A DNA stretch of 12,122 nt from Desulfobacula sp. Lineage in GTDB: Bacteria > Desulfobacterota > Desulfobacteria > Desulfobacterales > Desulfobacteraceae. The DNA lies in contig JAOZRI010000001.1 in assembly GCA_029940235.1 (NCBI GenBank), positions 1 through 12,122 on the forward strand. Reading direction: 5' to 3'. Shown piece after piece: positions 1 to 12,122 of the stretch. A model generated the notes under the pieces. That model was not told where the DNA came from, made no database searches, and saw only the letters and a program-made list of their open reading frames with translations. The translations under genes were made by a program, and so were the position numbers. Positions within the stretch are counted from its first letter, which is position 1. Each line of letters starts with the position of its first letter.

Positions 1-247
1 CCAGGGGATATAACATGCCGGTCATATCAGCATGGGTGTGAGAATCGATAAATCCCGGGCAGGTGATAAGCCCGGAACCGTCTATGACAACGACGGCATC
101 ATTTTCTGTTTCACCCACCGCAATAATTCGTTCGCCCAGAATGGCTACGTTGCCTCTATAAGCAACCTTACCCGTGCCGTCAATAATTTGTGTGTTTTTG
201 ATCAAAATATCAGGTTTACTGTATCCAGAATAATTTGGCTTTCCCAT
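1..247 (-). CDS. Amidohydrolase, D-aminoacylase type, N-terminal part (runs off the left edge)
   Basis: I translated this by hand on the minus strand. The frame is open from an ATG at 247-245 to the window edge and gives the first 82 residues. Residues about 13-50 read as the small N-terminal beta-domain of amidohydrolases (DILIKNTQIIDGTG, then GERIIAVGE). The first metal-binding motif, PGFIDSHTHAD, follows at about residues 64-74; its two His residues bind the catalytic metal in this superfamily. This order and wording match N-acyl-D-amino-acid deacylases and related imidase-like enzymes, which are usually near 500 residues, so most of the protein lies outside. The start is supported by TAAGGAGT at 262-255, a strong ribosome binding site 8 nt upstream. 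Base composition of the coding part is near 50% G+C over most of its length, higher than the cluster to the right. Its regulation and composition suggest it is a separate unit from that cluster. The exact substrate is unknown. Confidence 0.85.
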   Translation of the reverse strand, partial: MGKPNYSGYSKPDILIKNTQIIDGTGKVAYRGNVAILGERIIAVGETENDAVVVIDGSGLITCPGFIDSHTHADMTGMLYPL

Positions 248-254
248 CACTAAA

Positions 255-262
255 ACTCCTTA
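255..262 (-). promoter_or_regulatory. Ribosome binding site of the amidohydrolase
   Basis: The minus strand reads TAAGGAGT from 262 to 255, with the AGGAG core at 260-256 and the ATG at 247-245. It is close to the ideal anti-Shine-Dalgarno complement and fixes the start codon. Confidence 0.8.
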
Positions 263-342
263 TTAAGTTATTGATCAATATTTTGTTCCAAAAGATAGTT
301 TACCGATTTTTTTTTGCATTCTCCTTCATTTGATCTTCTATG

Positions 343-362
343 TTGATTGATTAATCAATCAA
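343..362. promoter_or_regulatory. Perfect 20-bp palindromic operator (TetR/FadR type) over the transcription start
   Basis: Positions 343-362 are a perfect 20-bp inverted repeat with no spacer, whose 18-bp core is TGATTGATTAATCAATCA (344-361). It has the spacing TGAnTGAnTAnTCAnTCA, the form of the Bacillus FadR operator (TGAATGAnTAnTCATTCA), differing only at two symmetric positions. It lies directly downstream of the predicted -10 hexamer, over about +1 to +20, so a bound protein should block transcription. TetR-family repressors of fatty acid or acyl-CoA metabolism are the natural candidates, but the regulator gene is not in the window. Confidence 0.6.
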
Positions 363-368
363 TTGGAC

Positions 369-395
369 AGTATACGACAAGAAAAATATTGTCAA
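369..395 (-). promoter_or_regulatory. Sigma70-like promoter of the amidohydrolase
   Basis: On the minus strand TTGACA (395-390) is a perfect -35 hexamer and TATACT (374-369) matches the -10 consensus at five of six positions. The spacer is 15 nt, shorter than the usual 17, which may make the promoter weak or dependent on local DNA shape. Transcription would begin near 362, giving a leader of about 115 nt before the ATG at 247. The promoter lies between two copies of the same palindromic operator, so it is probably a regulated promoter. This is a hand reading without experimental start-site data. Confidence 0.55.
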
Positions 396-404
396 GAAAA
401 AAAA

Positions 405-422
405 TGATTGCTTAATCAATTA
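405..422. promoter_or_regulatory. Second, imperfect copy of the operator, upstream of the -35
   Basis: Positions 405-422 read TGATTGCTTAATCAATTA. They match the perfect operator core at 16 of 18 positions. The copy lies 61 bp from the first, about six helical turns, and about 10 nt upstream of the -35 hexamer. Two related sites flanking a promoter at near-integral helical spacing suggest cooperative or looping repression. Confidence 0.5.
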
Positions 423-751
423 GATAATTAACATATAAAATTAGATAGTTATGATATGGTTTTAAGCTTTTAAAAATTTTTTATCATTTTTTAGCAAATT
501 GTCCAAATAGTTCAAACGGTTTATCCCGGACAAGAAATTCAGATTGAAATGAAAGTCCTTCAAAATTAGCAACGATAAAATTATTTGACATCTGCTTCAG
601 AAAATAAAATATCGAAAAAAGTATCAAATCGACGTTTCGGGTCTTGCAATGTCTATCCAAGCGACTGCAAGGTGAACGGCCGGTAACGGGTTATGGATTA
701 CGAGTTATATTTATAGCAAATATGCACTTGATGATCAGGATATTGATATTT
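423..751. other. Intergenic stretch between the cluster and the amidohydrolase, without a confident gene
   Basis: About 330 bases separate the last cluster gene from the second operator. The half near the operator is very AT-rich (poly-A/T at 470-490), while 630-690 is distinctly richer in G+C. I see no tRNA or rRNA, no clear GC-rich hairpin followed by a T-run, and no insertion-sequence ends. On the minus strand there are short coding-like fragments: a 35-codon frame at 591-484, and just upstream a frame reading QDPKRRFDTFFDILFSEADVK but broken by an in-frame TAG. They could be the remains of a decayed gene or chance. A weak 6-bp inverted repeat (CTTGCA/TGCAAG) lies at about 633-661. How the cluster transcript ends is not visible. 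Confidence 0.6.
484..591 (-). CDS. Possible 35-residue small protein or gene remnant
   Basis: An ATG at 591-589 opens a frame ending in TGA at 486-484. The predicted peptide begins MSNNFIVANFEG and ends ELFGQFAKK, with a protein-like mix of residues and no membrane segment. There is no convincing ribosome binding site. The frame stays open upstream of the ATG for many codons, and a neighbouring frame also looks protein-like up to its TAA at about 581. That pattern fits a decayed coding region with a frameshift as well as a genuine small gene. I do not recognise it, and it is offered only as a candidate. Confidence 0.2.
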   Translation of the reverse strand: MSNNFIVANFEGLSFQSEFLVRDKPFELFGQFAKK

Positions 752-2206
752 TTACAGCCGTTTATTTGTAAAGGCAAATGTTAAAAATCTGACACTGTTT
801 TTCATGAATCTCTTCCAGCTGTCCGGTGATTTCCATATCATTGAAAAGTATCCAAAAAGGACTTTATGTCTCATAAAATGGGATCTGTAAAAATCTATGA
901 ACAGTTTATCCATTGTCTCTTTTTCCATGCCATTGGGAATAAAAACAAAGTCCATGCAATCCATTTTCTTCCAGTTTTCCTGGAAAGTTCCTAAAACAGC
1001 ACCATCTTTAATCTGCTGGTAAATTGGTGAACCTGGAAAAGGTGTAAATTTAGCAAGATTAAAATCATCAATGGGCAGGGAATAGACATATTTTTTACTT
1101 TTTAATATACTCTCTTTTGTTTCACCTGGCAGCCCCATCATCAAAAGGGCTTTTACCCGTATTTTTGCTTTTTTAATTAAGATAATTTTATCTCTAAGCA
1201 TTTGAAGGTCAGCATTTTGCCGATGCTGCGCAAGCAGATTTTCATCTCCTGTTTCAACACCTAAGCTTATCATCCAGCAGCCGGCAGCTTTCATTGCCAA
1301 CACCAGTTCAAGGTCAAGATGTTCTGCCCTTGCAGCACAGTTAAAACTCATTTTAAGATTACCTGCAACCATGAGGTCACAAAATTGAATTACCCGCTTT
1401 TTATTAAAGGTGAACTGGTCATCATAAAAATTTACATGTTTGATGCCAAAATGTTTATTTAAATACTTAAAATGTTCATAAAGATATTGGGCGCTGTTAT
1501 ACCTGAAACTTCTTTTAAAGACAGATCTATCACAATAACTGCATGAGTATGGGCATCCCCTGCTTGAAATACAGCTGGAATTTGGAGTTTTAGGGTAATT
1601 AAAAATCGGGAGTTTATATTTTTCAGGATAACCTTCAAGCTTTTCATAGGCCGGGAATGGCAGAGAGTCCAGGTCAAGCAGTTTTTTTCTGTATCCTGTA
1701 AAGAGAGCTTTTCCTGTAATATCTCTAAAGACAATACTCTCTATCTGTAGGATATCATTATGATCAGCTTTGATAAGTTCAGTAAGAGTCTGCTCTCCTT
1801 CACCTGCAACCACATAATCAATATGCTCAAATTTTTCAATAATTGACTCTTTTAATGCAGAGACATGTGCACCTCCAAAAACAACTTTAATATCAGGAAG
1901 TATTGACTTTGCCATCTGTGCAAGGCGAACTCCATCATGAAAAGTAGAAGTTGAGCAGGAAAAACCTATGAAATCGGGTTTATCTGTTTCAAGGTATTTT
2001 ACTATCTTTGTGTCTGCATCGGGGTGGGCATAACAATCAATGATATCACAATTGATCTGACGTTGAAGAAGGTACGCACAAATGCTGGCAATACCAAGGG
2101 GAGGAGTAATATTTGCAATCCTTGAAATATCTTTGGATGCCTTATCAGACTTATATCCAAGAGGATGTACCAGCAGAATTTTTTTTTTAAAATTCTGCTC
2201 TTTCAT
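752..2206 (-). CDS. B12-binding-domain radical SAM enzyme (rSAM-C), last gene of the cluster
   Basis: This 484-residue protein has the two-domain plan of cobalamin-dependent radical SAM enzymes. Residues about 8-145 are a Rossmann-like B12-binding domain (KKILLVHP, PPLGIASICAYL, VVFGGAHVSA, GEGE at 135-138). Residues about 205-400 are the radical SAM barrel with the CxxxCxxC cluster motif GCPYSCSYC (Cys218, Cys222, Cys225). Later SAM-site segments are FYDDQFTFNKKR (260-271), LGVETG (315-320), MGLPGET (357-363) and FTPFPGSP (387-394). The C-terminal 50 residues are basic and aromatic (YRSHFMRHKVLFGYF), like the tails of the lipid-acting BchE/hopanoid-enzyme branch. Family members methylate unactivated carbons or make rings. 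The substrate here is inferred to be the lipid or polyketide of the cluster. The start ATG overlaps the preceding stop as ATGA, implying translational coupling. A run of ten A (minus strand, 2188-2179) lies in codons 6-10 and could promote slippage. Confidence 0.88.
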   Translation of the reverse strand: MKEQNFKKKILLVHPLGYKSDKASKDISRIANITPPLGIASICAYLLQRQINCDIIDCYAHPDADTKIVKYLETDKPDFIGFSCSTSTFHDGVRLAQMAKSILPDIKVVFGGAHVSALKESIIEKFEHIDYVVAGEGEQTLTELIKADHNDILQIESIVFRDITGKALFTGYRKKLLDLDSLPFPAYEKLEGYPEKYKLPIFNYPKTPNSSCISSRGCPYSCSYCDRSVFKRSFRYNSAQYLYEHFKYLNKHFGIKHVNFYDDQFTFNKKRVIQFCDLMVAGNLKMSFNCAARAEHLDLELVLAMKAAGCWMISLGVETGDENLLAQHRQNADLQMLRDKIILIKKAKIRVKALLMMGLPGETKESILKSKKYVYSLPIDDFNLAKFTPFPGSPIYQQIKDGAVLGTFQENWKKMDCMDFVFIPNGMEKETMDKLFIDFYRSHFMRHKVLFGYFSMIWKSPDSWKRFMKNSVRFLTFAFTNKRL

Positions 2207-3468
2207 TTTTTAATTCTTCTTTGAAAAGAGCGCTTTGTCTTTGGATTATATCTTCTATATGTACCATCCTTAATCTCTTTTTGTATTACTTTATAAAAGA
2301 GTGATCCCATTTTTGTCTGCTGCCCCCCATCGGCATAAAACGTATTCCAGGCAAGGTCATACATTGCTTCAAGTCTTTCAGGAGATATCAGTTTAGGCTG
2401 GAATACAACATTGTCACATGAATACTTGCTCCAGTCATTATGCAGGATTCTTCCCTCTTTTTCGAATTTTTTTCTAATGGGGCTTTCAGGAAAAGGAGTC
2501 AGTATTGTAAATTCAGCCATGTCAAGATTTACCTCCATGAGAAAATCAATCAAACGTTTGATATAATCCTCATCTTGTTCATCTGTACCGAGAAGTATTG
2601 TCCCCTCCACACCTATTCCATGATCATGGAGACGATTTATTCTATCCTTGATAACATCAGAAGTATCCACAATGGCCTGATAAACATACCAGCAGCCTGC
2701 TTGTGCAGCAAGTTCAAGCACATCATCATCATATATTATGGGGTGTGAAACCCACTTCTTTTTTAAAGGTATCATGGCCCTGAAAAGATCCATGACCCAC
2801 TTCTTATCCTGGGCAAGTGAGTTGTCCACAATGAAAAGGCGGTTATTTTTAATTCCCTCCATCTCTTTAATTACTGTATCAATGGGGCGGGGCCGGAACT
2901 GTGCACCTCCAAGGAAATTATTACAGCATGGAAAACAGTTAAATCTGCAGCCCCTTGAGGCATGCACAAGATCAACCATCTGGATGCCCCTGTACGCATA
3001 GAGATCCCTGTCAAGGATATCTCTTCTCGCAGAGTGTATTGTGGTAGTGTCGGGATGATTTTTCATATAATCATAAACTTTTTTCAACTCACCTTTTTTA
3101 AAATCATCAAGAACTTTTCCAAGTCTCCCATCTTCCACTTCACCGAGGAATACACAATCTGCATGTTTCATTACCTCTTTGGAATGAAGCATCACAGCAA
3201 TACCACCAAAAATAACTGGAATACCCTCTTTTCTATAAGTATCTGCTATTTCCAGTGCCCTTGGAATCTGACAGGTGAGCAGTACTGAAATAGCGATAAT
3301 ATCGCAGGAAAAATCATATTCAAGCGTCTGTACATTTTCGTCATAAAAATGCAGATCAACATATTCTGGTAAAGCTGCAGAAAAGACAACCGGCGCATGG
3401 GGAGGAAGGTGAAATACTGTCTGATGTTTAAGTTTTTTCCATTCAGGAAATATAAGCTGCATTTTCAT
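2203..3468 (-). CDS. B12-binding-domain radical SAM enzyme (rSAM-B)
   Basis: This 421-residue protein is a second, quite different radical SAM enzyme. Residues about 1-125 form a shortened B12-binding-like domain (IPVIFGGIAVMLHS at 83-96). The usual GEGE is GEVE (109-112), and the first strand seems modified, so cobalamin binding is less certain than in its neighbours. The radical SAM core starts with SRGCRFNCFPC, placing the cluster cysteines at 174, 178 and 181, with an extra Cys182 directly after. FIVDNSLAQD (212-221) and LTPFPESP (323-330) follow. The tail is strongly basic (TKRSFQRRIKK). Its place between the half-ketosynthase and rSAM-C, with ATGA overlaps on both sides, ties its production to that of the chain-building enzymes. 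The reaction is unknown; a C-C bond-forming, methylating or rearranging step on an acyl chain is a guess from context. Confidence 0.85.
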   Translation of the reverse strand: MKMQLIFPEWKKLKHQTVFHLPPHAPVVFSAALPEYVDLHFYDENVQTLEYDFSCDIIAISVLLTCQIPRALEIADTYRKEGIPVIFGGIAVMLHSKEVMKHADCVFLGEVEDGRLGKVLDDFKKGELKKVYDYMKNHPDTTTIHSARRDILDRDLYAYRGIQMVDLVHASRGCRFNCFPCCNNFLGGAQFRPRPIDTVIKEMEGIKNNRLFIVDNSLAQDKKWVMDLFRAMIPLKKKWVSHPIIYDDDVLELAAQAGCWYVYQAIVDTSDVIKDRINRLHDHGIGVEGTILLGTDEQDEDYIKRLIDFLMEVNLDMAEFTILTPFPESPIRKKFEKEGRILHNDWSKYSCDNVVFQPKLISPERLEAMYDLAWNTFYADGGQQTKMGSLFYKVIQKEIKDGTYRRYNPKTKRSFQRRIKK

Positions 3469-4220
3469 AAATTTAATTCATCCTTAATTTTTTTGCTTTC
3501 CATACACATATGAGCAAGGTCAAGCAGATCTTTTATACTCTTATCATTAAAAAAAATAGTACCGTTTTCATCTTCTTTGATTTTACCATAATTTAATTTC
3601 TGTTCTTTTTGGCTGAGCGTAAAAAACAGACTGCCTGCAAAATCATTGTTGCTGTTATTTAATACACTTTGCATAAAACCAGGAACGTTTGTATCACAAA
3701 TGCCGCATATTACAATTTCAGATTCCTTAGAATTCAATATATCAAAGGCCATTTTAAGTATTGTAATTCCATTTGAGTTATCTTCATTAATGGCAAAACA
3801 TTGACCAGTCGTTTTCAGATATATTGAAGCTTCACCGAGAAAAGCATTGGGAAGAGCATATGCAAAAAGAGCAGGACTCGCATTTTTTCCATTTTGCAGT
3901 TTAACAGTTTCAAAATAGTGATTATCTGTATCAAGACATCTTAAAAAGGTAGATACAATAATAGCTGTATCACAAGTTTCACTATTTTCTATCTGGTCTG
4001 CTTTTATTAATCCAGCATCCTTATAAGCAAAACAGGTGCCTGCAAAACCAATTTTTGAAAAAAAATCCATTCTGCCAAAAGGTTTATAGGGCTTATCTAA
4101 AACATCTTTCCTTGAGATAAGGGGCAGTTTTCCAGGTTTTGGATTGAATTCTTTAAAATCCCTGCCGCATCCAGAGATTTCTGGAGTTACAAAACCAATG
4201 CCGCTGATATAATAACTCAT
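3465..4220 (-). CDS. Half-length ketosynthase-like protein (chain-length-factor-like), no catalytic Cys
   Basis: The 251 residues resemble only the N-terminal half of a beta-ketoacyl synthase: ISGIGFVTP at the start, then the dimer-interface region and the nucleophile-elbow region at about 137-155. Aligned by eye with the neighbouring ketosynthase, the segment TTGQCFAINEDNSNG has Asn148 where the nucleophilic Cys should be. The C-terminal half with both catalytic His motifs is missing. It should therefore be unable to condense by itself. Short N-terminal-domain ketosynthase homologues of about this length occur in aryl-polyene-type clusters, where the ketosynthase partner acts as a chain length factor. 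I infer a heterodimer with the ketosynthase encoded just upstream, supported by their ATGA overlap. The frame ends cleanly at a TGA overlapping the next start, so the short length looks evolved rather than broken. An alternative is a regulatory or scaffold subunit. Confidence 0.72.
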   Translation of the reverse strand: MSYYISGIGFVTPEISGCGRDFKEFNPKPGKLPLISRKDVLDKPYKPFGRMDFFSKIGFAGTCFAYKDAGLIKADQIENSETCDTAIIVSTFLRCLDTDNHYFETVKLQNGKNASPALFAYALPNAFLGEASIYLKTTGQCFAINEDNSNGITILKMAFDILNSKESEIVICGICDTNVPGFMQSVLNNSNNDFAGSLFFTLSQKEQKLNYGKIKEDENGTIFFNDKSIKDLLDLAHMCMESKKIKDELNL

Positions 4221-5350
4221 TGGTTTTCCATCCTTTCTAATATTAAGGCAGCATTTGTTCCTGCAAAACCAGAATTTGTACTTAAAAGATATCTCTTAAA
4301 AAAAGGAACATTTTCAGGGCTTATCAGATTTTCAGCACCGGGCTCAGGATTTAAAAACCCATGGGTTCCAGGCAGAATACGCTCTTTAAGCATTAATGTT
4401 CCAATGGCAGCTTCAATGCCTCCTGCACCACCCAGCGTATGTCCTATTGCACCTTTAAAGGAGTTCCCAGGTACTTTTAGATCTTTAAAAACCTTTTTAA
4501 ATGCTGCAATCTCCATGGAATCATTATATATAGTTCCTGTACCGTGTGTATTGATCGCACCAATATGTCCAGGAGTTATTCTGGCTGTTTTCAGGGCATT
4601 ATTGATGGCAATGATTAATCCACGCCCATCCCTTGCCGGAGCAGTAATATGAGTTGCATCACTTGCAATGCCGTATCCTGCAATTAAGGTATTAATGGCA
4701 ATGCATTGTTTTTTTGCAAGCTTTTCATCCATAAGAAGAATTGCAGCGCCTCCATCACCGAGGCTTAATCCCTGCCTGTCAATATCAAAGGGCCGGGTTG
4801 GGCTTGAAGAGAGTGCATTGAGTGCAGAAAAACCTGAAAAAACAAATTCACTTACAATATCAGCACAGAAAATAAGAACACATTCAGCCCTATTGTTTTC
4901 AATCATCTGTGTCCCTTTTATAATGGCAATGGTTGGGGAAGCACATGCAGAGTTGATATTGACTCCACTATTTTTAAGATTTAATTTTTTAGCAACATAT
5001 TTGGGAATGTTAGAAGGTATTAGATATCTGTTTATCAAGCATTGCTTTTTTTGATTTTTTGCAAAAAGGTCAGCACATCCCTGTGTTGTAGCTGTTAACA
5101 ATACACAATCTTTTGGAATGTTATCTAACTGGTTAATAATCAAGTCAGTAAGGTTTAAAAAACTGCTCCGGCTGTCTGGCATTTCAACCTTTTTGATAAG
5201 TGCTGCATAGCTGCTTTTATAATTTTTAGTTTCAAATCGAAAATTTTTTTTTATACCGCATCTATTATTTAAAAAAGATTGAAAAGTAGAAGCCAAATCA
5301 GATCCTACAGGTGTTACAACACAAGTTTGAGCAATCACAACCTTTCTCAT
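4217..5350 (-). CDS. Beta-ketoacyl-ACP synthase (FabF/type II PKS-like ketosynthase)
   Basis: This 377-residue cytoplasmic condensing enzyme joins a malonyl unit to an acyl-ACP or acyl-enzyme primer with loss of CO2. It keeps the full decarboxylating thiolase-fold triad: Cys136 in NINSACASPT, His269 in NTHGTGTIYND, and His304 in FKGAIGHTLGGAGG with Lys299. The glycine-rich C-terminal loop NSGFAGTNAALIL (359-371) is also present. It is somewhat shorter than E. coli FabF (about 410), mostly in the N-terminal third, where motifs are less regular. It overlaps the thioesterase stop and the half-ketosynthase start by ATGA on both sides, so a ketosynthase/chain-length-factor pair is likely. A run of nine A (minus strand, 5252-5244) lies near codons 33-36. 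The chain length and starter cannot be predicted from sequence. Confidence 0.9.
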   Translation of the reverse strand: MRKVVIAQTCVVTPVGSDLASTFQSFLNNRCGIKKNFRFETKNYKSSYAALIKKVEMPDSRSSFLNLTDLIINQLDNIPKDCVLLTATTQGCADLFAKNQKKQCLINRYLIPSNIPKYVAKKLNLKNSGVNINSACASPTIAIIKGTQMIENNRAECVLIFCADIVSEFVFSGFSALNALSSSPTRPFDIDRQGLSLGDGGAAILLMDEKLAKKQCIAINTLIAGYGIASDATHITAPARDGRGLIIAINNALKTARITPGHIGAINTHGTGTIYNDSMEIAAFKKVFKDLKVPGNSFKGAIGHTLGGAGGIEAAIGTLMLKERILPGTHGFLNPEPGAENLISPENVPFFKRYLLSTNSGFAGTNAALILERMENQ

Positions 5351-5811
5351 TTACAGCCCTCTTTTTTCCACGCTTCACAAAAATCTTTATAATAATCCGG
5401 CTGGGTTAAAAAGAGTTGATAATCAGGATCAAGCAGCATCTGAATGACATATCCTGTTGCAGCAACAGTATTGTTTTGTTTTTTAATTATATATTCAGTT
5501 AAAATTTTTGAGGCCTGTGTATAGTGCAAAATGCATTCGATTGATATCTCTTCTCTAAAAAAAACCGGAGTTTTAAAATCGATATGCATTTTTTTTATTG
5601 GGGCTAAAATACCATTATTGAAAAGATCTAAATAACCAAGTTGATATCTTTCGCCCAGAGCAACTCTGGCATCCTCAAAATAGCTGGCAAATCTTCCATG
5701 CCATGCAATACCCATGGAATCAATCTCTTCAAACCTTGTAGTGGTTTTTACAACAGCTCTTAAAGGCTTAGGGTCATCTTCCATCTGTTTGAAATATGGC
5801 TGCTTAATCAT
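5347..5811 (-). CDS. Hotdog-fold acyl-CoA/acyl-ACP thioesterase (4HBT/YbgC-like)
   Basis: I start this gene at the ATG 5811-5809, giving 154 residues. A TTG two codons upstream (5817) is also possible and would overlap the FabG stop. GGAG lies about 10 nt before the ATG and 4 nt before the TTG. The N-terminal segment RFEEIDSMGIAWHGRFASYF matches the DxxGxxYHxxY signature of YbgC/4-hydroxybenzoyl-CoA thioesterases, with Trp-His in place of Tyr-His. The catalytic Asp is residue 31 and the His residue 38 in this numbering. The rest (MHIDFKTPVFF, then a long strand pair) fits one hotdog domain. It probably hydrolyses the thioester of a product or stalled intermediate; a dehydratase-like role is less likely. 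Its TGA overlaps the ketosynthase ATG (ATGA). Confidence 0.8.
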   Translation of the reverse strand: MIKQPYFKQMEDDPKPLRAVVKTTTRFEEIDSMGIAWHGRFASYFEDARVALGERYQLGYLDLFNNGILAPIKKMHIDFKTPVFFREEISIECILHYTQASKILTEYIIKKQNNTVAATGYVIQMLLDPDYQLFLTQPDYYKDFCEAWKKEGCK

Positions 5812-5813
5812 AT

Positions 5814-6548
5814 TCAAACCACTCCGCCATTAACTCCAATTACCTGTCCTGTAATATAAGACGCTTTCTTAGAACAGAGAAATCCTACTAAAGCGCTGAC
5901 TTCTTCAACCTTCCCAACTCTTCCACACGGTATCATTTTTTTAATCTGATCCATGGGCATGCCTTCAAGTATCTGGGTATCAATAAATCCAGGTGCCACT
6001 GCATTAACTGTAATATTTCTTTTGGCAATCTCCTTTGAGAGAGCTTTGGTTGCTCCTATTATTCCAGCCTTTGCCGCAGAGTAGTTGACCTGCCCCGGAT
6101 TACCCACCTGCCCTGCTGTTGATGAAATATTGACAATCCTTCCAAAACGTTTAGTAATCATGTCTTTAACAATCAGTTTTGATACATTAAAAAAAGATGC
6201 AAGGTTGGTGTCTAAAACATTTTTCCAGTCAGGTTCCTGCATCCATGCCATGAGTTTATCATTTCTGATCCCTGCATTATTAACAAGAATATCAACCTTT
6301 CCATGGGTATCAAGTATTGCCTGAACAGCCTTTTCACATAAATCGGCATCACTTACATCAAACTGCACGGCTTTAGCTTGTCCACCATTGTTTTCAATCA
6401 TTGTACAGGTTTCAAGAGCAGCTTTTTCATTGGTATGAAAGTTGACATAAACAAAGCGTCCTTTTTTGCCAAGTTCTACGGCGATTGCTCGTCCAATGCC
6501 TCTGCTTGCACCTGTTACTAATACTATCTGTTCACTCTCTTTACTCAT
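5814..6548 (-). CDS. fabG: 3-oxoacyl-ACP reductase (FabG-like short-chain dehydrogenase)
   Basis: I place the start at the ATG 6548-6546 because GGAG (6559-6556) sits 7 nt before it. The upstream ATG at 6575 has no such site and would add nine atypical residues. The protein is then 244 residues, the same as E. coli FabG. Motifs in order: TGASRGIG (12-19) for NADP(H), NNAG (90-93), Asn115, Ser143 in ISSTAG, and Tyr156/Lys160 in YSAAK, so the catalytic tetrad is complete. APGFIDT (185-191) and the C-terminal VNGG (239-242) are typical. It should reduce 3-ketoacyl thioesters to 3-hydroxyacyl thioesters made by the ketosynthase downstream. No dehydratase is visible in the window. The stop falls 2 nt before the thioesterase ATG. 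The symbol marks family membership; this may be a dedicated pathway copy rather than the housekeeping enzyme. Confidence 0.9.
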   Translation of the reverse strand: MSKESEQIVLVTGASRGIGRAIAVELGKKGRFVYVNFHTNEKAALETCTMIENNGGQAKAVQFDVSDADLCEKAVQAILDTHGKVDILVNNAGIRNDKLMAWMQEPDWKNVLDTNLASFFNVSKLIVKDMITKRFGRIVNISSTAGQVGNPGQVNYSAAKAGIIGATKALSKEIAKRNITVNAVAPGFIDTQILEGMPMDQIKKMIPCGRVGKVEEVSALVGFLCSKKASYITGQVIGVNGGVV

Positions 6549-6632
6549 TTTTTTTCTCCATGCTGGATCAAACATTCAACTTAAGTCATCTCTTTTAATT
6601 GTTCAAAAATTCACATAAGTCAAAATTGTATG
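6549..6632. other. Only sizeable gap inside the operon; possible weak internal promoter
   Basis: The 84 nt between the ligase stop and the FabG start hold the FabG ribosome binding site. On the minus strand TTGACT (6623-6618) resembles a -35 hexamer, but the sequence 17 nt further (AATTAA, 6600-6595) matches the -10 only poorly. No hairpin terminator is seen, so read-through of one long transcript is more likely, with perhaps a weak internal start for FabG and the genes after it. Confidence 0.25.
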
Positions 6633-8111
6633 TCATACTCTCTTAATTTTCTGGCTGTCTGTTTTTTCTATATATTTAACTTGAATAAATTCCTTTGGAA
6701 TTTTGTATGAATCAAGTTGTTTTAAACAGTGTTTCTTGAGTTTGAAGATATCAAGGCTGCCACTTTTAGACAAAACAACTTGAGCAATGGGAAGCTGCCC
6801 GTAAATATCATGCTGTTCAGCAAAGACCCTGACTTCCTTAATATTATCAAAACTTAAAATAACCTCTTCAACCTCTTCAGGGAAAATTTTCATCCCTGCA
6901 AAATTTATAAGATTTTTAGATCTGCCTGAAATAAAGAGGTAGGAATCTTTTAAATAGCCGATATCGCCTGTGTCAAACCATTGATCTCTTTTTTTCCATG
7001 GAGAAGTATATGCATAATACATTCCTTTTCCCCTAAGAAGGATTTTTCCCGCTCCTTTATCATCGGGCTCTCTGATTTTCAGATCATAGGATGGCAGAAG
7101 CTTTCCCACAGAGCAGATAAATTCTTTATCAAATCTGTCATTAATAAATGGCAGACCAACTTCAATAATACCATAGGCCTGACTTAAGTGAATATTAAAT
7201 TTATTAAAAAACTGCTGTTCTGTCAGTTTATTGAGAGATACTGCAGTTACCACTGCCATGCGCACATCTGATAACAGATCAGCTGGAATATTATCATGTG
7301 AGGCAAGCAGATTATAATGGAATGGTGAAGCATATAAAAATGTTGGTTTTATTGTCTTAAAAGGGTCAATAATACCTGTGGGAAAATTCTCCTGGGCTAA
7401 TACAATATGGGCACGTCTGCGCAAAAAAAGCAGAATACTGACTACAAAATGAAAACTCATGGATAAAAACCAGCCAATGGTATCATCCGATGAAATATTG
7501 AGCATAATATCAGCAGCAGAAGTTCTCTCAATGATGGCTTGATGGGTCAATAAAACCCCTTTACTTTCACCTGTGGTTCCAGATGAAAACCGAATAAATG
7601 CAGGGCAACTTACTTTTAGATAAAGGTCTGAATATTTTACATTTTTATCTATTTCATACAGATAGAGTTTATTGATAAACAGCCTTCCGCCATGAAGTTT
7701 ATTAAAATGCAATGTATCTGTATCTTTTTGAGACAGCAAATATTTAATTTTTATTCTTTGGCATAAAGATTCCAATTCACTGGAAGCCAGAGAAGGAGAT
7801 AAAGGAACAATTACAGCACCTGTATCCAGAACAGCAAGCGCCATAATAACATATTCAATGGAATCATCACAAAAAAGGGCTATGCGATCATGGCTTTTAA
7901 AACCGATTTTGGTTAATACTTGACTCTGTTTATCCACCTCTTTAAGAAGTTGTGCATATGTGATTGAATCTTTTAATTCATCTTTTACATGCCTTGAAAC
8001 AGCAAGGTTTTCTCTTTTTTCAGGATTCTCCTCTTTAATCAGGTCAACAATATTAACTCTAGATTTTTTATTAACCTCGTTTTTATTAATATGGTTTTTG
8101 TCACTCTTCAT
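6633..8111 (-). CDS. AMP-forming acyl/aryl ligase (ANL adenylating enzyme)
   Basis: I start this at the ATG 8111-8109, which has GAGGG about 8 nt upstream and overlaps the rSAM-A stop by 11 nt. An ATG at 8150 lacks a ribosome binding site and would make the overlap 50 nt. The 492-residue protein has the ANL core motifs: the P-loop FSSGTTGESKG (175-185), AYGIIE (312-317), WFDTGD (378-383), and the hinge SGRSKNLINFAGMKIFPEEVE (positions 395-415). Lys488 in TDSQKIKR takes the place of the catalytic A10 lysine. It should activate a carboxylic acid with ATP and pass it to CoA or a carrier protein, as the starter-loading ligase does in aryl-polyene-type clusters. The aromatic-motif Thr of YGxTE is Ile here, and the usual Gly before the A10 lysine is Gln. 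The first 30 residues are rich in Lys/Asn. No fused carrier domain is present. The substrate is unknown. Confidence 0.85.
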   Translation of the reverse strand: MKSDKNHINKNEVNKKSRVNIVDLIKEENPEKRENLAVSRHVKDELKDSITYAQLLKEVDKQSQVLTKIGFKSHDRIALFCDDSIEYVIMALAVLDTGAVIVPLSPSLASSELESLCQRIKIKYLLSQKDTDTLHFNKLHGGRLFINKLYLYEIDKNVKYSDLYLKVSCPAFIRFSSGTTGESKGVLLTHQAIIERTSAADIMLNISSDDTIGWFLSMSFHFVVSILLFLRRRAHIVLAQENFPTGIIDPFKTIKPTFLYASPFHYNLLASHDNIPADLLSDVRMAVVTAVSLNKLTEQQFFNKFNIHLSQAYGIIEVGLPFINDRFDKEFICSVGKLLPSYDLKIREPDDKGAGKILLRGKGMYYAYTSPWKKRDQWFDTGDIGYLKDSYLFISGRSKNLINFAGMKIFPEEVEEVILSFDNIKEVRVFAEQHDIYGQLPIAQVVLSKSGSLDIFKLKKHCLKQLDSYKIPKEFIQVKYIEKTDSQKIKRV

Positions 8112-9591
8112 GGGAAAAGCCCTCTTTTTTTGCTGCAGCAAGGAGTTCATCGTTTTTTAAAGGATGCATTGTTGCAGGGTAGTCTTTATAAATATTATAG
8201 AGTGAAAAAACATATCTTGTTCCAAAAATAACAGCCCTGAAAAAATCTTTAAGCTTAACCTTTATTTTATTAACCCGCAATGGATTTGAACGCAGAGCAA
8301 TTGCATATAAACGACCAAAATGCTTGTAAAATTGTTTAATGGTCATATTCGTCGGAATTACAGTGTGCATACAGTCATAGTATTTAAAGGGGTTGCATAT
8401 AAATTGATCTTTATATTGTTCAAAAAGCGGTGTCCCAGGCGAAGGTGATAATACAGTAAAAGTAATTTCAGAAGGACAAAGTGCAATAACATCTGCTTCA
8501 AGGCGCTTAAAATCATTTTTATCAAAATCAGGATGAACAATAAAAGCTGCGTGGAGCATAATTCCATAATCTTTTAATATTTTTATTGCTTTTAGGTTTG
8601 TTTCATAACCTGTTTTTTTATTATAATCTTCAAGCCTTTTCTGATCCATTGATTCAAGACCGACATATACTACATCCAATCCTACTTCTTTCCATAATTT
8701 AAATACTTCGGGATGTTTTGCAATTGTATCACTTCTTGCCCAGCTGATATATTTTTTTTGTATGTTCCTCTGTTTTAATAACTGAGCAATTTTCGTTACA
8801 CGTTTAATATTGATAAACATCTCATCATCGACAAAATATACATAATCCTCTTTTAAATTTTCAATTTCATCAACAACATCCTCGGGAGTCCGCTGCAGAT
8901 ATGCTTTATTCATTACATGATGAATCACACAAAACGAACATGAAAAAGGACATCCCAACGAAGTTCTCAGGCTTGCTACCCTGGGGAATAATTCATCTAA
9001 TTTCCCTGTATCACTGTGTGTCCAGATACAAAAATATTTTGATCTATCTACTAAATCACGTCTTGGCAGAGGAATTGATTTAACATCAACATATGAAGGA
9101 GGGTTTTCTCTGGCATTTTTCTCAAAATCAATATCCTCGGGTGCAAGAATATTTGTATTGTTGCCAATTTTATTGCCAGCTTCAAGGTTTTTAATAATAT
9201 CTGATATGGCATTGGCTCCCTCACCACGAACCACAGCAGAAATATAACTATAATTAAAATCATATGGGCGCAAAGTTGCATGTATACCACCGATAATAAT
9301 ATTGGATTCAGGCAGTATTGCTTTTGCTTTAACCGCAAGGTCATTAACAATATGCGCTCCTGTACTGTAAGCAGAAAACCCTATTAAATCAGGACAGAAT
9401 TCTCTGATGGTTTTAAAAAACAGATCCGCAGGTTTTTTTTCAACACTCAAATCAAGGATACGGGTGATATGTTTTTTATCAACTCCTGCCGCAGTTATCT
9501 CAAGTTCAAGGGGTTCTAAATGTAAAAAACCCTCTTGAAGCCTTTTAGCAACTTTAAGTTCAGTATATGGTTTAACAAGTAATACTTTCAT
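8101..9591 (-). CDS. B12-binding-domain radical SAM enzyme (rSAM-A)
   Basis: This 496-residue protein has a cobalamin-binding domain at about 1-140 (MKVLLVKPY, IIIGGIHATLRPYD, VRGEG at 121-125) and a radical SAM domain at about 200-395. The cluster motif SLGCPFSCSFC gives Cys214, Cys218 and Cys221. Other core motifs are VYFVDDEMFIN (251-261), VVYVGLESM (307-315) and LSPSPGTPLF (381-390). As in many radical SAM B12 proteins, I see no DxHxxG motif. The C-terminal 100 residues are basic and aromatic and end with HPLKNDELLAAAKKEG, which may contact lipid or a carrier protein. It differs enough from rSAM-B and rSAM-C that the three are unlikely to be recent duplicates. It begins 12 nt after the FAD enzyme and its end overlaps the ligase start. 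The reaction is not predictable; methylation or ring formation on the nascent chain is inferred. Confidence 0.88.
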   Translation of the reverse strand: MKVLLVKPYTELKVAKRLQEGFLHLEPLELEITAAGVDKKHITRILDLSVEKKPADLFFKTIREFCPDLIGFSAYSTGAHIVNDLAVKAKAILPESNIIIGGIHATLRPYDFNYSYISAVVRGEGANAISDIIKNLEAGNKIGNNTNILAPEDIDFEKNARENPPSYVDVKSIPLPRRDLVDRSKYFCIWTHSDTGKLDELFPRVASLRTSLGCPFSCSFCVIHHVMNKAYLQRTPEDVVDEIENLKEDYVYFVDDEMFINIKRVTKIAQLLKQRNIQKKYISWARSDTIAKHPEVFKLWKEVGLDVVYVGLESMDQKRLEDYNKKTGYETNLKAIKILKDYGIMLHAAFIVHPDFDKNDFKRLEADVIALCPSEITFTVLSPSPGTPLFEQYKDQFICNPFKYYDCMHTVIPTNMTIKQFYKHFGRLYAIALRSNPLRVNKIKVKLKDFFRAVIFGTRYVFSLYNIYKDYPATMHPLKNDELLAAAKKEGFSHEE

Positions 9592-9603
9592 GGCTTATAA
9601 TTC

Positions 9604-10731
9604 TCATGTCTCTTTTTTTAAATAATTTGATGCAGTAATTATTGCCTGCTCCCCTGTTGCAATACATATCCCCATAACTCTGGCAGAGGCATGTATATGT
9701 TGTGAGATATTTATATTTTTACCAGCAAGAAAAAGATTGTCAAATCCATCATCTTTTAGTGCAGACACTGGTATACAAAAGGGTTTATCTTTTTTGCAAT
9801 ACTGGTACAGAGTACCTTTTTTTATATCCCATTTTTCCGTTGGCCAGTAACTTTTAACAGCGCAGCCTGTATCATGGACTTGCTCATGGGTTAACGTTTT
9901 TTTCTCTATCCTGTTGCAATCTCTTAAATGTATATTTTGAGAAGCTTTAAGAAATTTCAATCCGGATAACTCTTTAATATCTTTGTTCAGTTTTTCATAA
10001 ATAAAGTGACATTTTGCCATATCATCACTGTTTTTAACAGAAAATTTTAAAATATAATTTTTTGTTAAAAAATTGTAAGTTATTGTTACAAATTTAAGAT
10101 ATTCATTAAGGTTGTACTTTTCTACTATTTTGCGGGCAGTATATGGAATAATCAAGGACAAATCTGTATCTAAACCACCTTGCAAAAGAAAACAATATCC
10201 TCCAAGTTGAGAATGGTTTGTCCTGGATTTATCAGATAAAGGTGCACACCCTGTTGCATCAACAAAGACATCAGCAGCAAGGTTGATCTCTTTGTTTTGA
10301 TTTCCATGCTGTCTGATGATTGTTATTTTTTTAATTTTTCTGTTTTCAGATACGGGTTTTAAACACTTGCTGCTGCCATAAAAAATAAAATTATCTCTAT
10401 TTAAATTCTTAAAAAAGTATCCCCATAAATCTTTTTGAATAAATGCAAGGGTTTCAACCTTTCCCATCTTTACAAGGGATTTATCACCATAGCATTTATG
10501 TAAAAATCTGAAAATATCAGAACATATACCAGGATTAGCTATGTCAAAGGGTCTGGCATTATCGTTTTTAAAAAGACCGCAAATATATGTGTGAAAGCAG
10601 TCTTTGGCAATCCCTCCAAAATTACTCTCTTTTTCCACAAGTGCAGTATGCATTCCATTTTTAACTGCTGTTAAAGCAGCAGAAAGGCCTGCTATTCCTG
10701 CTCCCATAATTATGACATCAAATTTTTCCAT
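9604..10731 (-). CDS. FAD-dependent oxidoreductase (FAD_oxidored-like)
   Basis: The 375-residue protein starts with a Rossmann FAD-binding motif, DVIIMGAGIAGLSAAL (5-20), followed by LVEKESNFGG (31-40). The second FAD contact VDATG is at 157-161. Near the C-terminus DNLFLAGKNI and ASARVMGICIATGEQA (348-363) form the last FAD-binding segment of the family that includes FAD-dependent dehydrogenases of the PF12831 type. No membrane segment or Fe-S motif is clear, though several Cys (Cys45, Cys51, Cys161, Cys179, Cys289) are scattered along it. It could desaturate or saturate an acyl intermediate, or oxidise a hydroxyl. Flavoprotein dehydrogenases or phytoene-desaturase-like enzymes often accompany unusual lipid clusters. 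Its ATG lies inside the end of the preceding gene (14-nt overlap), so the two are probably co-translated. The sequence between 195 and 270 is extremely AT-rich. Confidence 0.8.
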   Translation of the reverse strand: MEKFDVIIMGAGIAGLSAALTAVKNGMHTALVEKESNFGGIAKDCFHTYICGLFKNDNARPFDIANPGICSDIFRFLHKCYGDKSLVKMGKVETLAFIQKDLWGYFFKNLNRDNFIFYGSSKCLKPVSENRKIKKITIIRQHGNQNKEINLAADVFVDATGCAPLSDKSRTNHSQLGGYCFLLQGGLDTDLSLIIPYTARKIVEKYNLNEYLKFVTITYNFLTKNYILKFSVKNSDDMAKCHFIYEKLNKDIKELSGLKFLKASQNIHLRDCNRIEKKTLTHEQVHDTGCAVKSYWPTEKWDIKKGTLYQYCKKDKPFCIPVSALKDDGFDNLFLAGKNINISQHIHASARVMGICIATGEQAIITASNYLKKET

Positions 10732-12118
10732 TCACTGGCCCTGGAATCATTTTTGAAATTATATTCTCTTGCAGGCATGCACACTCTTGTTTACTCAAAG
10801 TATTATCATAACACGATATGACCATATTCAATTTTTTATTAAACCTTGTAAAAAAAACTCCAATTCCTGGATCCACAGGCACTAAAGGCATATGAAAAAG
10901 ATTTTTAACCTCAAGGCCTTGCACAGATCTTAAATTAAATGCCTGTTCAGCAATATAGGAAAAAGAGAAAGAGCAGGGATTTTTTTTCATTCTAAGATTC
11001 ATGAACCAAGAGAGAAGATTAAGTGGCATGATACGCATCAAAAGAGAGGCATTAATAAAGTGATGTGGTATTTTGTTTTTCACCTGATCAATAAACTGGG
11101 TTTTTAAATTTTTTATATAATCAGTTATTGATAGACCCTGTTTAACATTAAAAAGCATAAAAGAGACACTGTTAAAAAATATTTTTTCACTGCCAAATTT
11201 AGTTTTACGCATATCCACATTAATTGGAATAAGCATGTTGCCAGAACGTTTTTTTTTTTTTAACAGAGAGTCAAAACTTTTTGCAACACAGCTTAAAATA
11301 AAGATACCATTCATGAGATAGCCTGCTTTTTTTATGGCGTTGTCATCAATGGCCAAGGTCTGATTATCAGACAATGTATAGTAATGGAAATAGTGATGTT
11401 TGTCTGCTTGAAAGCTTGCACTTGATCCCAGTTTATTGGTGATTGGACCGGTTTCATTATTGTTATGAATATTAAAAGTCTGAGCTACATTAATCTTTTT
11501 TGAATATATTGATCTTAAAAACCGATTTATACGCTGTCCTGATAAAAATCGACTTTTCCAGGCATTTAGTTGAGCATTTTGTGATGGCAGATCGTACTGT
11601 ATGTAAGGGCTTTTTTCATCTAAAATATATTCAAGCAGACGTTCAGCTCCTCTTGCATCAAACATTTTATGGGTAAATCTCATAATCAGATAGGAGTGAT
11701 CATTACAATGGATAAGATCAAAACCAAGCAGTGTTTTATCATCCTGAAAAGGGGTTTTTGCACACTTTTGCAGAACCAGATCAAGGTTTTCTTCCATTGC
11801 CCCGGCAATGTTTGTCTTATTATCTGATTCCAGGTTAAAATACCTAATATCTTTGGGATCAAAATTGTGCTGCTCCGGAGCCCAATAGGGTGCAAGATGC
11901 CATGCACGTCTTGTGCTTCCTTTAAAAAACAGGTTTTCAGATAAAATTAAGGCAATCCTCTGGGCCAGTTTTGTTTTATCAATATATCCTTTTAATACAA
12001 GTACAAGCTGTGAATGGTTGCCAAGCCCTGTCTGTTTTATATTGAGCCTGTCTAAAGCCGCCATGACCCAGTCAATTCCATTAAGGTAGTAACGCTTAGA
12101 TGTATTGAAAATTACCAT
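10718..12118 (-). CDS. Condensation-fold acyltransferase-like protein (HxxxD)
   Basis: This 466-residue protein looks like a two-lobed chloramphenicol-acetyltransferase-fold enzyme of the condensation/wax-ester-synthase group. The N-terminal part (YLNGIDWVMAALDRL, then NHSQLVLVLKGYID) fits the first beta/alpha unit. RFTHKMFDARGAERLL contains the active-site motif as His150-xxx-Asp154, with Thr before the His and Ala after the Asp where HHxxxDG has His and Gly. The second lobe contains MLIPINVDMRK (295-305) and FNSVSFMLFN (315-324), equivalent to the Nx(R/V) and FxN segments of the fold. It has no carrier domain, so it is probably a stand-alone transferase that moves an acyl group from ACP or CoA to an alcohol or amine acceptor. 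The ATG sits in TAATG at the right edge, suggesting coupling to an upstream gene. A run of 13 A on the coding strand (11261-11249) encodes Lys287-290. Confidence 0.72.
   Translation of the reverse strand: MVIFNTSKRYYLNGIDWVMAALDRLNIKQTGLGNHSQLVLVLKGYIDKTKLAQRIALILSENLFFKGSTRRAWHLAPYWAPEQHNFDPKDIRYFNLESDNKTNIAGAMEENLDLVLQKCAKTPFQDDKTLLGFDLIHCNDHSYLIMRFTHKMFDARGAERLLEYILDEKSPYIQYDLPSQNAQLNAWKSRFLSGQRINRFLRSIYSKKINVAQTFNIHNNNETGPITNKLGSSASFQADKHHYFHYYTLSDNQTLAIDDNAIKKAGYLMNGIFILSCVAKSFDSLLKKKKRSGNMLIPINVDMRKTKFGSEKIFFNSVSFMLFNVKQGLSITDYIKNLKTQFIDQVKNKIPHHFINASLLMRIMPLNLLSWFMNLRMKKNPCSFSFSYIAEQAFNLRSVQGLEVKNLFHMPLVPVDPGIGVFFTRFNKKLNMVISCYDNTLSKQECACLQENIISKMIPGPVNGKI
11249..11261. repeat. Homopolymer run of 13 A (coding strand) inside the acyltransferase gene
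   Basis: Positions 11249-11261 are thirteen consecutive T on the plus strand, read as four AAA codons plus the last base of a Leu codon in the acyltransferase gene. Such tracts are prone to replication or transcription slippage, and a change of one base would truncate the protein about 60% of the way through. Confidence 0.9.
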
Positions 12119-12122
12119 TAAT

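Follow-up and report, generated by a model that had tools for sequence, protein, structure and literature searches.

The window, i.e., the whole stretch of 12,122 nt that was analyzed, covers positions 1..12,122 of the forward strand of contig JAOZRI010000001.1 from Desulfobacula sp. (assembly GCA_029940235.1). The ORF list comprises ten ORFs between 752 and 12118, all on the minus strand. In the order of transcription, these are:

10718..12118, minus strand: COND, a 466-aa stand-alone condensation-fold acyltransferase (Foldseek: NRPS C domains)
9604..10731, minus strand: FAD, a 375-aa flavoprotein with a geranylgeranyl-reductase/monooxygenase-like fold (PF12831, FAD_oxidored, 105 bits, over cut-off)
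8101..9591, minus strand: rSAM3, a 496-aa HpnR-like B12-binding radical SAM protein
6633..8150, minus strand: AMP, a 505-aa acyl/aryl-adenylating ligase (PF00501, AMP-binding, 162 bits, over cut-off)
5814..6575, minus strand: KR, a 253-aa FabG/FlxB-like 3-ketoacyl-ACP reductase (Pfam over cut-off)
5347..5817, minus strand: TE, a 156-aa 4HBT hot-dog thioesterase (PF13279, 48 bits, over cut-off)
4217..5350, minus strand: KS, a 377-aa ketosynthase with an active-site Cys (PF02801 and PF00109, over cut-off)
3465..4220, minus strand: CLF, a 251-aa half-length KS partner without the catalytic Cys
2203..3468, minus strand: rSAM2, a 421-aa divergent B12-binding radical SAM protein, a (not strict) marker of the cluster family
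752..2206, minus strand: rSAM1, a 484-aa BchE/HpnJ-like B12-binding radical SAM protein, the final gene of the cluster

Seven of the nine gene junctions are overlaps: 14 nt for COND/FAD, 50 nt for rSAM3/AMP and 4 nt for each of the five junctions from KR through rSAM1. Gaps of 12 nt and 57 nt separate FAD from rSAM3 and AMP from KR, respectively, and a scan for a terminator 3' of rSAM1 found none. This layout and the assigned domains bear out the earlier note, which had described one largely overlapping operon with these enzymes, in which three distinct radical SAM proteins of the B12-binding kind accompany a type II set for chain building. B12-binding and Radical_SAM profiles score 92 and 71 bits in rSAM1, 50 and 77 bits in rSAM3, and 34 bits (cut-off 32.1) and 24.7 bits (below the cut-off of 29.5) in rSAM2, in which CxxxCxxC is invariant across 13 aligned sequences. 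The best NCBIfam match of rSAM3 is HpnR (228 bits versus a curated cut-off of 650), while rSAM1 matches BchE (197 versus 481) and HpnJ (174 versus 578), as well as PDB entry 6fd2 (apramycin oxidoreductase 4; 91 bits). As none of the three reaches an NCBIfam equivalog cut-off, the reactions proposed for them below are guesses from distant relatives.

COND has no Pfam or NCBIfam match and no sequence match in the PDB, and its HxxxDARGA motif is invariant in 9/9 aligned sequences. Its structure model (mean pLDDT 70, from 9 sequences) resembles NRPS condensation domains in Foldseek (SrfA-C: E 5e-18, TMq 0.52), so that a new family was rejected; the fold agrees with the condensation-type acyltransferase proposed earlier. 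For FAD, the top Foldseek match is the GGR-like 3oz2 (E 4e-11, TMq 0.48), with many monooxygenases so close behind that Foldseek could not tell reductases from monooxygenases. The NCBIfam matches of AMP are fatty-acyl-CoA ligase- or MenE-like, all below cut-off among the 25 matches listed. KR matches FlxB, a flexirubin SDR, best (313 bits, below the cut-off of 340) and passes the cut-off of FabG PRK05653.1-5 (304 bits versus 273). The top PDB matches of KS are FabF chains (152 bits). Both KS and a second ketosynthase, KSb (see below), also match 6qsp, which we take to be ApeO (133 bits for KS), but many FabF-type chains score equal or better. CLF has ketoacyl-synt matches in its N-terminal part only (PF00109: 23.4 bits, above the cut-off of 20.8; PF13723: 20.6 bits, below 25). 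In the alignment, the active-site column holds a Cys in 5/5 KS and in none of the seven CLF sequences.

Directly past the window lies a scaffold gap of 100 N (contig 12123-12222), beyond which the contig extends to 34604 and the cluster goes on. Since the window merely stops at this gap, the upstream genes belong to the same genome and are not known from relatives alone. The ten window genes are the downstream (3') part of a cluster of 26 genes, so a self-contained ten-gene pathway is ruled out. All 26 genes occur in identical order in one relative, G055, with 65-89% identity in the stretches fetched from it. Gene content, order and conservation are thereby established at the level of sequence and, because the same ten genes recur there in the same order, their arrangement is not due to chance.

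The full cluster carries a fourth B12 radical SAM protein, rSAM4 (contig 16733-18055), which matches TIGR04072, NCBI's "ladderane" radical SAM family, with 634.7 bits. The previously suspected link to ladderane-candidate loci therefore exists within the same contig. In G055, LolA, DUF3261, LpxL, PlsC, a PF13723 CLF and two ACPs score over their Pfam cut-offs and a third ACP slightly under (19.4 bits versus 20.8); in the own contig, DUF3261, CLFb and a FabA-like dehydratase do so. GT2 was identified on the copy in relative G076. KSb and CLFb (PF13723, 48 bits, over cut-off) are present in both G055 and the own contig, as is KSa, which matches PRK09116, presumably the ApeR type, with 452 bits (cut-off 470). 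For the exporter, Pfam gives no match and NCBIfam only weak ones of the RND type (55 bits against a cut-off of 752, and 53 against 352). A CrtD-like flavoprotein stands at the head of the cluster. A SPASM protein carries an ApeP-like PF22817 match in the C-terminal part of 3/6 full-length copies (20.4, 16.7 and 13.9 bits; cut-off 27), the other three copies having no match; PF22817 also matches one stand-alone 152-aa protein (16.0 bits). An ApeI-like PF22818 match scores 24 bits (cut-off 28.5). With its three ACPs, its export genes and not one but two KS:CLF pairs, the cluster would be unusual for an operon that makes branched or C-methylated fatty acids or modifies hopanoids as ordinary membrane lipids, without a specialized conjugate. 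The proximity of rSAM3 to HpnR in NCBIfam favors that explanation; no enoyl reductase was recognized among the 26 genes, though this enzyme could come from general fatty acid synthesis. We consider it highly improbable.

By function, not by alignment, around 15 of the 26 genes have a counterpart among the E. coli ape genes in the functional table of PMC8253772, namely C, D, E/F, H, I, J, K, L, M, N, O, P, Q and R. Hence, the cluster does not lie far from aryl polyene biosynthesis, contrary to the earlier view that its radical chemistry goes well beyond what aryl polyenes need; for ring building, also raised there, no evidence was found. Two typical aryl polyene components are recognizable: a KS:CLF plus a second KS (ApeO:ApeC and ApeR) in KSb with CLFb and KSa, and the genes for export and anchoring (LolA, RND-type protein, DUF3261, LpxL/GT2 and PlsC). 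As to reduction and dehydration, the KR is clear and a FabA-like dehydratase is over cut-off, but the ApeI- and ApeP-like candidates score below theirs. In our view, the 26-gene cluster that ends in the window probably makes an anaerobic aryl-polyene-type lipid that is tailored by B12 radical SAM enzymes.

In the pathway that we infer, down to every reaction and product, the AMP ligase would activate an aromatic (or other) acid, which is then loaded on an ACP; many relatives have a PaaK-like ligase next to an aromatic amino acid lyase, and there this ligase may activate the starter. The KS:CLF pairs, the KR and the ApeI/ApeP-like dehydratases would extend the chain to a conjugated polyene, the 4HBT thioesterase, in a presumed ApeK-like role, would proof-read it, PlsC, LpxL and GT2 would attach it to a lipid anchor, and LolA, the RND-type protein and DUF3261 would export the conjugate. 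The four B12 radical SAM proteins may replace the tailoring done by other enzymes in aerobic relatives, with C-methylation by the HpnR-like rSAM3 and the TIGR04072-type rSAM4, oxidation or hydroxylation by the BchE-like rSAM1, and a step tied to the second KS:CLF by rSAM2. ACPc-COND-FAD-rSAM3-AMP is an optional module, which probably joins a second acyl unit via an ester or amide bond.

The aryl starter is putative for the window cluster, since neither this cluster nor that of G055 contains a PaaK or aromatic lyase gene, no PF00221 match reaches E<=1e-60 in the window genome (78.7% complete), and the two PF00221 matches of G055 lie ~2.3 Mb from its cluster. Relatives do combine these genes with the cluster: a lyase (PF00221, 539-553 bits) is encoded within the cluster or next to it in three family genomes, and in 16 of the 80 rSAM2 loci kept for context analysis. 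Desulfuromusa kysingii DSM 7343, a cultured strain, carries a related cluster with both lyase and PaaK-like genes. The G076 lyase scores equally well against histidine lyases and tyrosine aminomutase (305-307 bits), and the lyase selectivity pattern matched nothing. The window-type gene content without lyase or PaaK would suit an anaerobic pathway to polyunsaturated fatty acids or hydrocarbons that lack an aromatic head (a proposal of 2009), in which the radical SAM and CrtD-like proteins serve as desaturases or isomerases; the CrtD-like flavoprotein at the cluster head and the C31:8 and C31:9 hydrocarbons found in Desulfotalea psychrophila (PMC2649909) fit it too. Nonetheless, LolA, the exporter, DUF3261, LpxL and GT2 indicate an outer-membrane-bound conjugate, and related clusters do contain lyase genes. 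Moreover, the D. psychrophila hydrocarbons may stem from another pathway, presumably OleABCD. We regard this alternative as rather unlikely.

In a scan of GTDB, rSAM2 was confirmed at 544 loci at least, of which the 80 kept were used for context counts by tblastn. Among these, CLF lies directly upstream of rSAM2 in 49/61 loci and a TIGR04072-type protein downstream in 58/69, while six of the 80 (L094, L099, L117, which spans only 3 kb, L120, L122 and L134) have neither CLF nor rSAM4. By hand count, 25 of 86 family genomes exceed the TIGR04072 cut-off, all of which carry rSAM2 (two as fragments), compared to none of the 54 family genomes without rSAM2. Seven genomes of one genus (g4) carry rSAM2 without an over-cut-off TIGR04072 protein; these and the six loci without the usual partners are why rSAM2 is not taken as a strict cluster marker. 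In L047, the only such g4 locus scanned with Pfam, rSAM2 neighbors a 238-aa protein without assignment, a LolA-family gene and regulators.

To our knowledge, all anammox bacteria make ladderanes. One could imagine that KS, KR and dehydratase make polyunsaturated acyl-ACPs, which B12 radical SAM enzymes cyclize to cyclobutane or other ring lipids. Besides the TIGR04072 protein in the window's contig, a run of KS, CLF-like, PaaK, SPASM, TIGR04072, KR, exporter and CrtD-like genes in an anammox genome, probably Kuenenia, speaks for this; it fits kuste3346-3336 (available part of PMC4790861). TIGR04072 is, however, over cut-off in only 5/16 picked anammox genomes and 0/8 further candidates (completeness not given), and a strong exporter match (644 bits or more) is present in the same five and in none of the eight. 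Three genomes whose first contig is about the whole genome (G305, G336 and G210) lack both at that level. A related locus is therefore unlikely, judged from gene distribution, to be the general ladderane pathway of anammox bacteria. On the other hand, 11/16 genomes have a below-cut-off TIGR04072 match (316-339 bits; seven of them only that), and the comparison covers just one of the Kuenenia candidate clusters. D. psychrophila has a related cluster, yet no ladderanes were found in it (PMC2649909). We deem a ladderane-type product very unlikely.

In its gene content, the cluster resembles an anaerobic form of the aryl-polyene pigment pathway that is common in bacteria, with several B12 radical enzymes added. 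Related gene sets in other anaerobes are listed under the ladderane name. "Ladderane" gene clusters of unknown function are reported in several non-anammox phyla (PMC9902471, available part); the anaerobic aryl-polyene reading would give them a product class, if they are the same clusters. It also casts doubt on a locus that guided the search for ladderane biosynthesis and draws attention to several uncharacterized B12 radical SAM proteins with possible lipid substrates. More tentatively, the pathway might lead across many anaerobic lineages to an undescribed aryl-polyene lipid whose ring and chain are methylated and oxidized by the four B12 radical SAM proteins. The anammox locus long regarded as a ladderane candidate would then be a derived offshoot of the pigment family rather than the ladderane pathway; we see this as possible, not as the likelier outcome.

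The one-for-one matches that were found are to uncharacterized clusters, so the refuting outcome named in the earlier note, such a match to a characterized cluster with a known product, did not turn up. The related cluster in a psychrophilic sulfate reducer that the note mentions is in print: the clusters of Rattray et al. 2009 (D. psychrophila, Geobacter, Pelobacter) share radical SAM, phytoene-dehydrogenase-like, membrane-protein and phenylacetyl-CoA ligase genes in synteny, while aryl polyene functions are not named in the available part of that account, section 9 included (PMC2649909). In the ladderane-candidate locus of Kuenenia (kuste3335-3352), the TIGR04072 and rSAM2-like proteins group with rSAM4 and rSAM2 in a 23-row tree, yet the rSAM2-like protein is only ~30% identical to rSAM2, a below-cut-off TIGR04072 paralogue of that genome groups nearer to rSAM4 (87/83, not starred), and the two stretches opened hold no best matches to rSAM1, rSAM3, COND or FAD and no aromatic lyase. 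KS matches cispentacin AmcF, as an example of other reducing type II PKSs, over nearly its full length (186 bits), yet below the cut-off of 325 and below its own FabF score in NCBIfam (216 bits; cut-off 494). The chemistry of flexirubins and xanthomonadins offers a further comparison: the FlxB match of KR and the aromatic lyase of related clusters are alike, whereas radical SAM proteins take the place of oxygen-dependent tailoring enzymes, none of which was recognized here, although the fold of the FAD protein is near both reductases and monooxygenases. Compared to E. coli apeA-R, the cluster adds a CrtD-like flavoprotein, the COND-FAD module, a SPASM protein whose C-terminal part is ApeP-like and another KS:CLF pair, besides the four B12 radical SAM proteins, and no counterpart of ApeA, ApeB (methyltransferase) or ApeG was recognized. 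By function, both share KS:CLF, a second KS, KR, ACPs, a 4HBT thioesterase, an acyl ligase, PlsC, GT2, LpxL, LolA, an RND-type exporter and DUF3261, as well as putative ApeI/ApeP-like dehydratases (below cut-off here), and the order LolA-exporter-DUF3261 is identical.

The ten genes described in the earlier note are borne out as open reading frames (ORFs), all on the minus strand, with domains assigned by Pfam where indicated below in transcription order.

10718-12118, minus strand: COND, ORF of a stand-alone condensation-type protein
9604-10731, minus strand: FAD, ORF of a FAD oxidoreductase, by Pfam
8101-9591, minus strand: rSAM3, ORF of a radical SAM protein, by Pfam
6633-8150, minus strand: AMP, ORF of an adenylating ligase, by Pfam
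5814-6575, minus strand: KR, ORF of a FabG-type protein, by Pfam
5347-5817, minus strand: TE, ORF of a thioesterase, by Pfam
4217-5350, minus strand: KS, ORF of a ketosynthase, by Pfam
3465-4220, minus strand: CLF, ORF of the half-length KS partner, by Pfam
2203-3468, minus strand: rSAM2, ORF of a radical SAM protein, by Pfam
752-2206, minus strand: rSAM1, ORF of a radical SAM protein, by Pfam

Seven of the nine junctions overlap, and the remaining two are gaps of 12 and 57 nt. COND has no family match in Pfam, NCBIfam or a PDB sequence search; its structure model (pLDDT 70, 9 sequences) resembles NRPS condensation domains in Foldseek, and its HxxxDARGA motif is invariant in all nine sequences. 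The active-site column lacks Cys in all seven CLF sequences, and KS carries Cys in five out of five. The Radical_SAM Pfam score of rSAM2 lies below the cut-off, and the three cysteines are invariant across 13 aligned sequences. On the 3' side of the operon, positions 2-250 (minus strand) hold the start of an amidohydrolase-like gene, by eye N-acyl-D-amino-acid deacylase-like, truncated by the window's left edge.

The ten-gene operon is not a complete unit: the cluster continues upstream on the same contig. The source MAG (3.0 Mb, 615 contigs, 78.7% complete) provides the window as bases 1-12122 of contig C474, which is 34604 bases long and contains 100 N at 12123-12222, where the window ends. 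Extension past this right edge, as had been suggested, reveals further same-strand genes and a cluster of 26 genes including a TIGR04072 protein (rSAM4), whose copy was located at contig 16733-18055 in a search of 86 family genomes. Upstream of COND follow ACPc, CLFb, KSb, ACPb, LpxL, GT2, rSAM4 and DH, then DUF3261, exporter, LolA, SPASM, PlsC, ACPa, KSa and a CrtD-like flavoprotein, which closes the run at contig 27299. All 26 proteins have same-order counterparts (65-89% identity) in the fetched stretches of a relative, G055 (5.2 Mb contig), where the domains include LolA (PF03548), DUF3261 (PF11659), an LpxL-type acyltransferase (PF03279), PlsC (PF01553) and a chain-length-factor protein (PF13723); three G055 ACPs have the PP-binding domain, one just below the cut-off. 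The Pfam scan of the window's own contig covered DUF3261, DH, CLFb, SPASM, exporter and CrtD; other genes were assigned via identity to relatives, GT2 (PF00535) through a scan of the copy in the relative G076. DH matches FabA-like above and ApeI-like below the cut-off. The C-terminal part of the SPASM protein has an ApeP-like match in three of six full-length copies, each below the cut-off, and the ApeP-like domain stands alone in one relative. The window-genome copy (L178:10812-11903) combines such a below-cut-off C-terminal part with a shortened radical SAM part; the copy at L136:1884-3398, with no ApeP Pfam match, has a hot-dog-like C-terminal stretch by eye.

Other genes lie near the cluster head. 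A divergent HemN-type radical SAM gene (Pfam) is found at L178:16959-18335 (plus strand) in the window genome, and a similar ORF, by eye, near the G076 cluster (L059:9694-11061). About 4 kb past the head, L179:1334-4604 (contig 31334-34604, plus strand) encodes a type I PKS-like protein with KS and AT (1090 aa), truncated by the contig end.

Thirteen aligned rSAM2 proteins served as the query for a scan of GTDB contigs, which confirmed at least 544 loci (544 of 587 pattern matches); the best 80 of these were examined. As labelled, these 80, almost all of them MAGs, include Desulfobacterales, Desulfuromonadales, Geobacter, Acidobacteria, Nitrospirae, Omnitrophota, Lentisphaerae, Planctomycetes and others. 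Within these best 80 of at least 544, a CLF lies upstream of rSAM2 in 49 of the 61 loci that are long enough to judge, a TIGR04072-type protein lies downstream in 58 of 69 (tblastn with family members), and six of the 80 have no CLF or rSAM4 match around rSAM2. The 38 of these best 80 with 8 kb on both sides contain KS (n = 33), KSb (n = 32), exporter (n = 29), DH (n = 27), LpxL (n = 27), PaaK (n = 13), lyase (n = 12) and COND (n = 4); any KS/CLF match occurs in 37, and an ordinary FabF could be enough for such a match. By hand count, rSAM2 occurs in 32 of the 86 family genomes, in two of them as a fragment; the 25 genomes with TIGR04072 above the cut-off are all among these 32. Since a close rSAM3 (at least 598 bits) occurs in only 6 of the 86, the window is a rarer variant carrying a COND-FAD-rSAM3-AMP module. 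COND and FAD beside ACPc also occur in Nitrospirae and Omnitrophota records. One contig labelled as a Rhodospirillaceae MAG (L061) carries KR-TE-KS-CLF-rSAM2-rSAM1 at 73-84% identity and is probably misbinned or mislabelled. At L047:7981-10664 and L048:8235-10229, rSAM2 lies outside the cluster and adjoins a protein of 238 aa; in L047 this protein matches nothing in Pfam, and a LolA-family gene is also next to rSAM2.

A ladderane-type pathway like that of anammox bacteria is an unlikely rival reading. Rattray et al. (2009) describe radical SAM and phytoene-desaturase-like genes in Kuenenia fatty acid clusters, with synteny in Desulfotalea psychrophila; Geobacter and Pelobacter have similar clusters, and no ladderanes were found in D. 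psychrophila (PMC2649909). The related cluster that the earlier note mentions for a psychrophilic sulfate reducer is in print. Of 392 genomes from the same phylum as a Phycisphaerales record, 77 matched hydrazine synthase (PF18582). Among the matches listed, 16 genomes (ORFs of 809-831 aa) were hand-picked as the anammox set and eight others (814-844 aa) as a second set. Seven of the 16 were checked, with ORFs of 809-817 aa at 80-98% pairwise identity, and that of the anammox genome G176 matches the hydrazine synthase structure 5c2v over its whole length. TIGR04072 exceeds the cut-off in five of the 16 and in none of the second set (2.0-3.3 Mb, unstated completeness). The rSAM2 profile finds some match in all 16, at 234-246 bits in those five. 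An exporter match (E<=1e-10) occurs in eight of the 16 and in none of the second set; it is strong (at least 644 bits) in the same five (the G446 copy with stops), and the three remaining genomes score no more than weakly, at 44-103 bits.

G176 is probably Kuenenia; its gene order is KS, CLF-like, PaaK, SPASM, TIGR04072, KR, exporter and CrtD-like, which fits the order from kuste3346 down to kuste3336 in the table of PMC4790861. The CLF-like protein (in G176, PF00109 at E 7e-4, just below the cut-off) would correspond to kuste3345, listed there as unknown. A 23-protein radical SAM tree, which includes no outside families, has long stems and drew a long-branch warning, groups anammox TIGR04072 with cluster rSAM4 (100/100) and the anammox rSAM2-like proteins with cluster rSAM2 (99/96). 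Given the TIGR04072 and exporter distribution and this tree, the anammox locus is related but patchy. Against this reading count below-cut-off TIGR04072 matches in 11 of the 16 genomes (316-339 bits), four of which also have an over-cut-off copy, and in two of the eight second-set genomes (306-307 bits). In the tree, a below-cut-off Kuenenia paralogue is nearer cluster rSAM4 than the over-cut-off copy (87/83, not starred). No ketosynthase of the cluster kind was found nearby in L160 and L162, the two below-cut-off loci opened. Ladderane clusters are reported from several phyla, with function unknown outside anammox, in a Cariaco Basin paper (PMC9902471).

For the radical SAM proteins, distant relatives suggest roles: HpnR for rSAM3, BzaD and tryptophan 2-C-methyltransferase for rSAM4, and BchE/HpnJ for rSAM1. 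As BchE does not methylate and instead forms a ketone together with a ring (PMC13142503), the reaction of rSAM1 might be an oxidation or a cyclisation. For rSAM2, the top NCBIfam score is 48 bits, and none of the characterised relatives there is close.

Among the titles and abstract openings listed by searches of a literature that leaves out most subscription papers, none identifies such clusters as aryl-polyene-type. Genes for an aromatic amino acid lyase and for an acyl ligase lie in or beside relatives' clusters; lyase and PaaK-type genes are absent from the window-genome and G055 clusters. Gene content and order are observed directly. Compared by description with the E. coli aryl polyene gene table and its ape gene functions (PMC8253772), no counterpart of apeA, apeB or apeG was recognised in the cluster, and functional counterparts appear for apeC, apeD, apeE/F, apeH, apeI, apeJ, apeK, apeL, apeM, apeN, apeO, apeP, apeQ and apeR. 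The predicted functions of the genes in the upstream half point to an aryl-polyene-like system; following that model, the product would be a polyene that is held on a lipid anchor and exported to the outer membrane. The cluster and the E. coli set share the order LolA, exporter, DUF3261.
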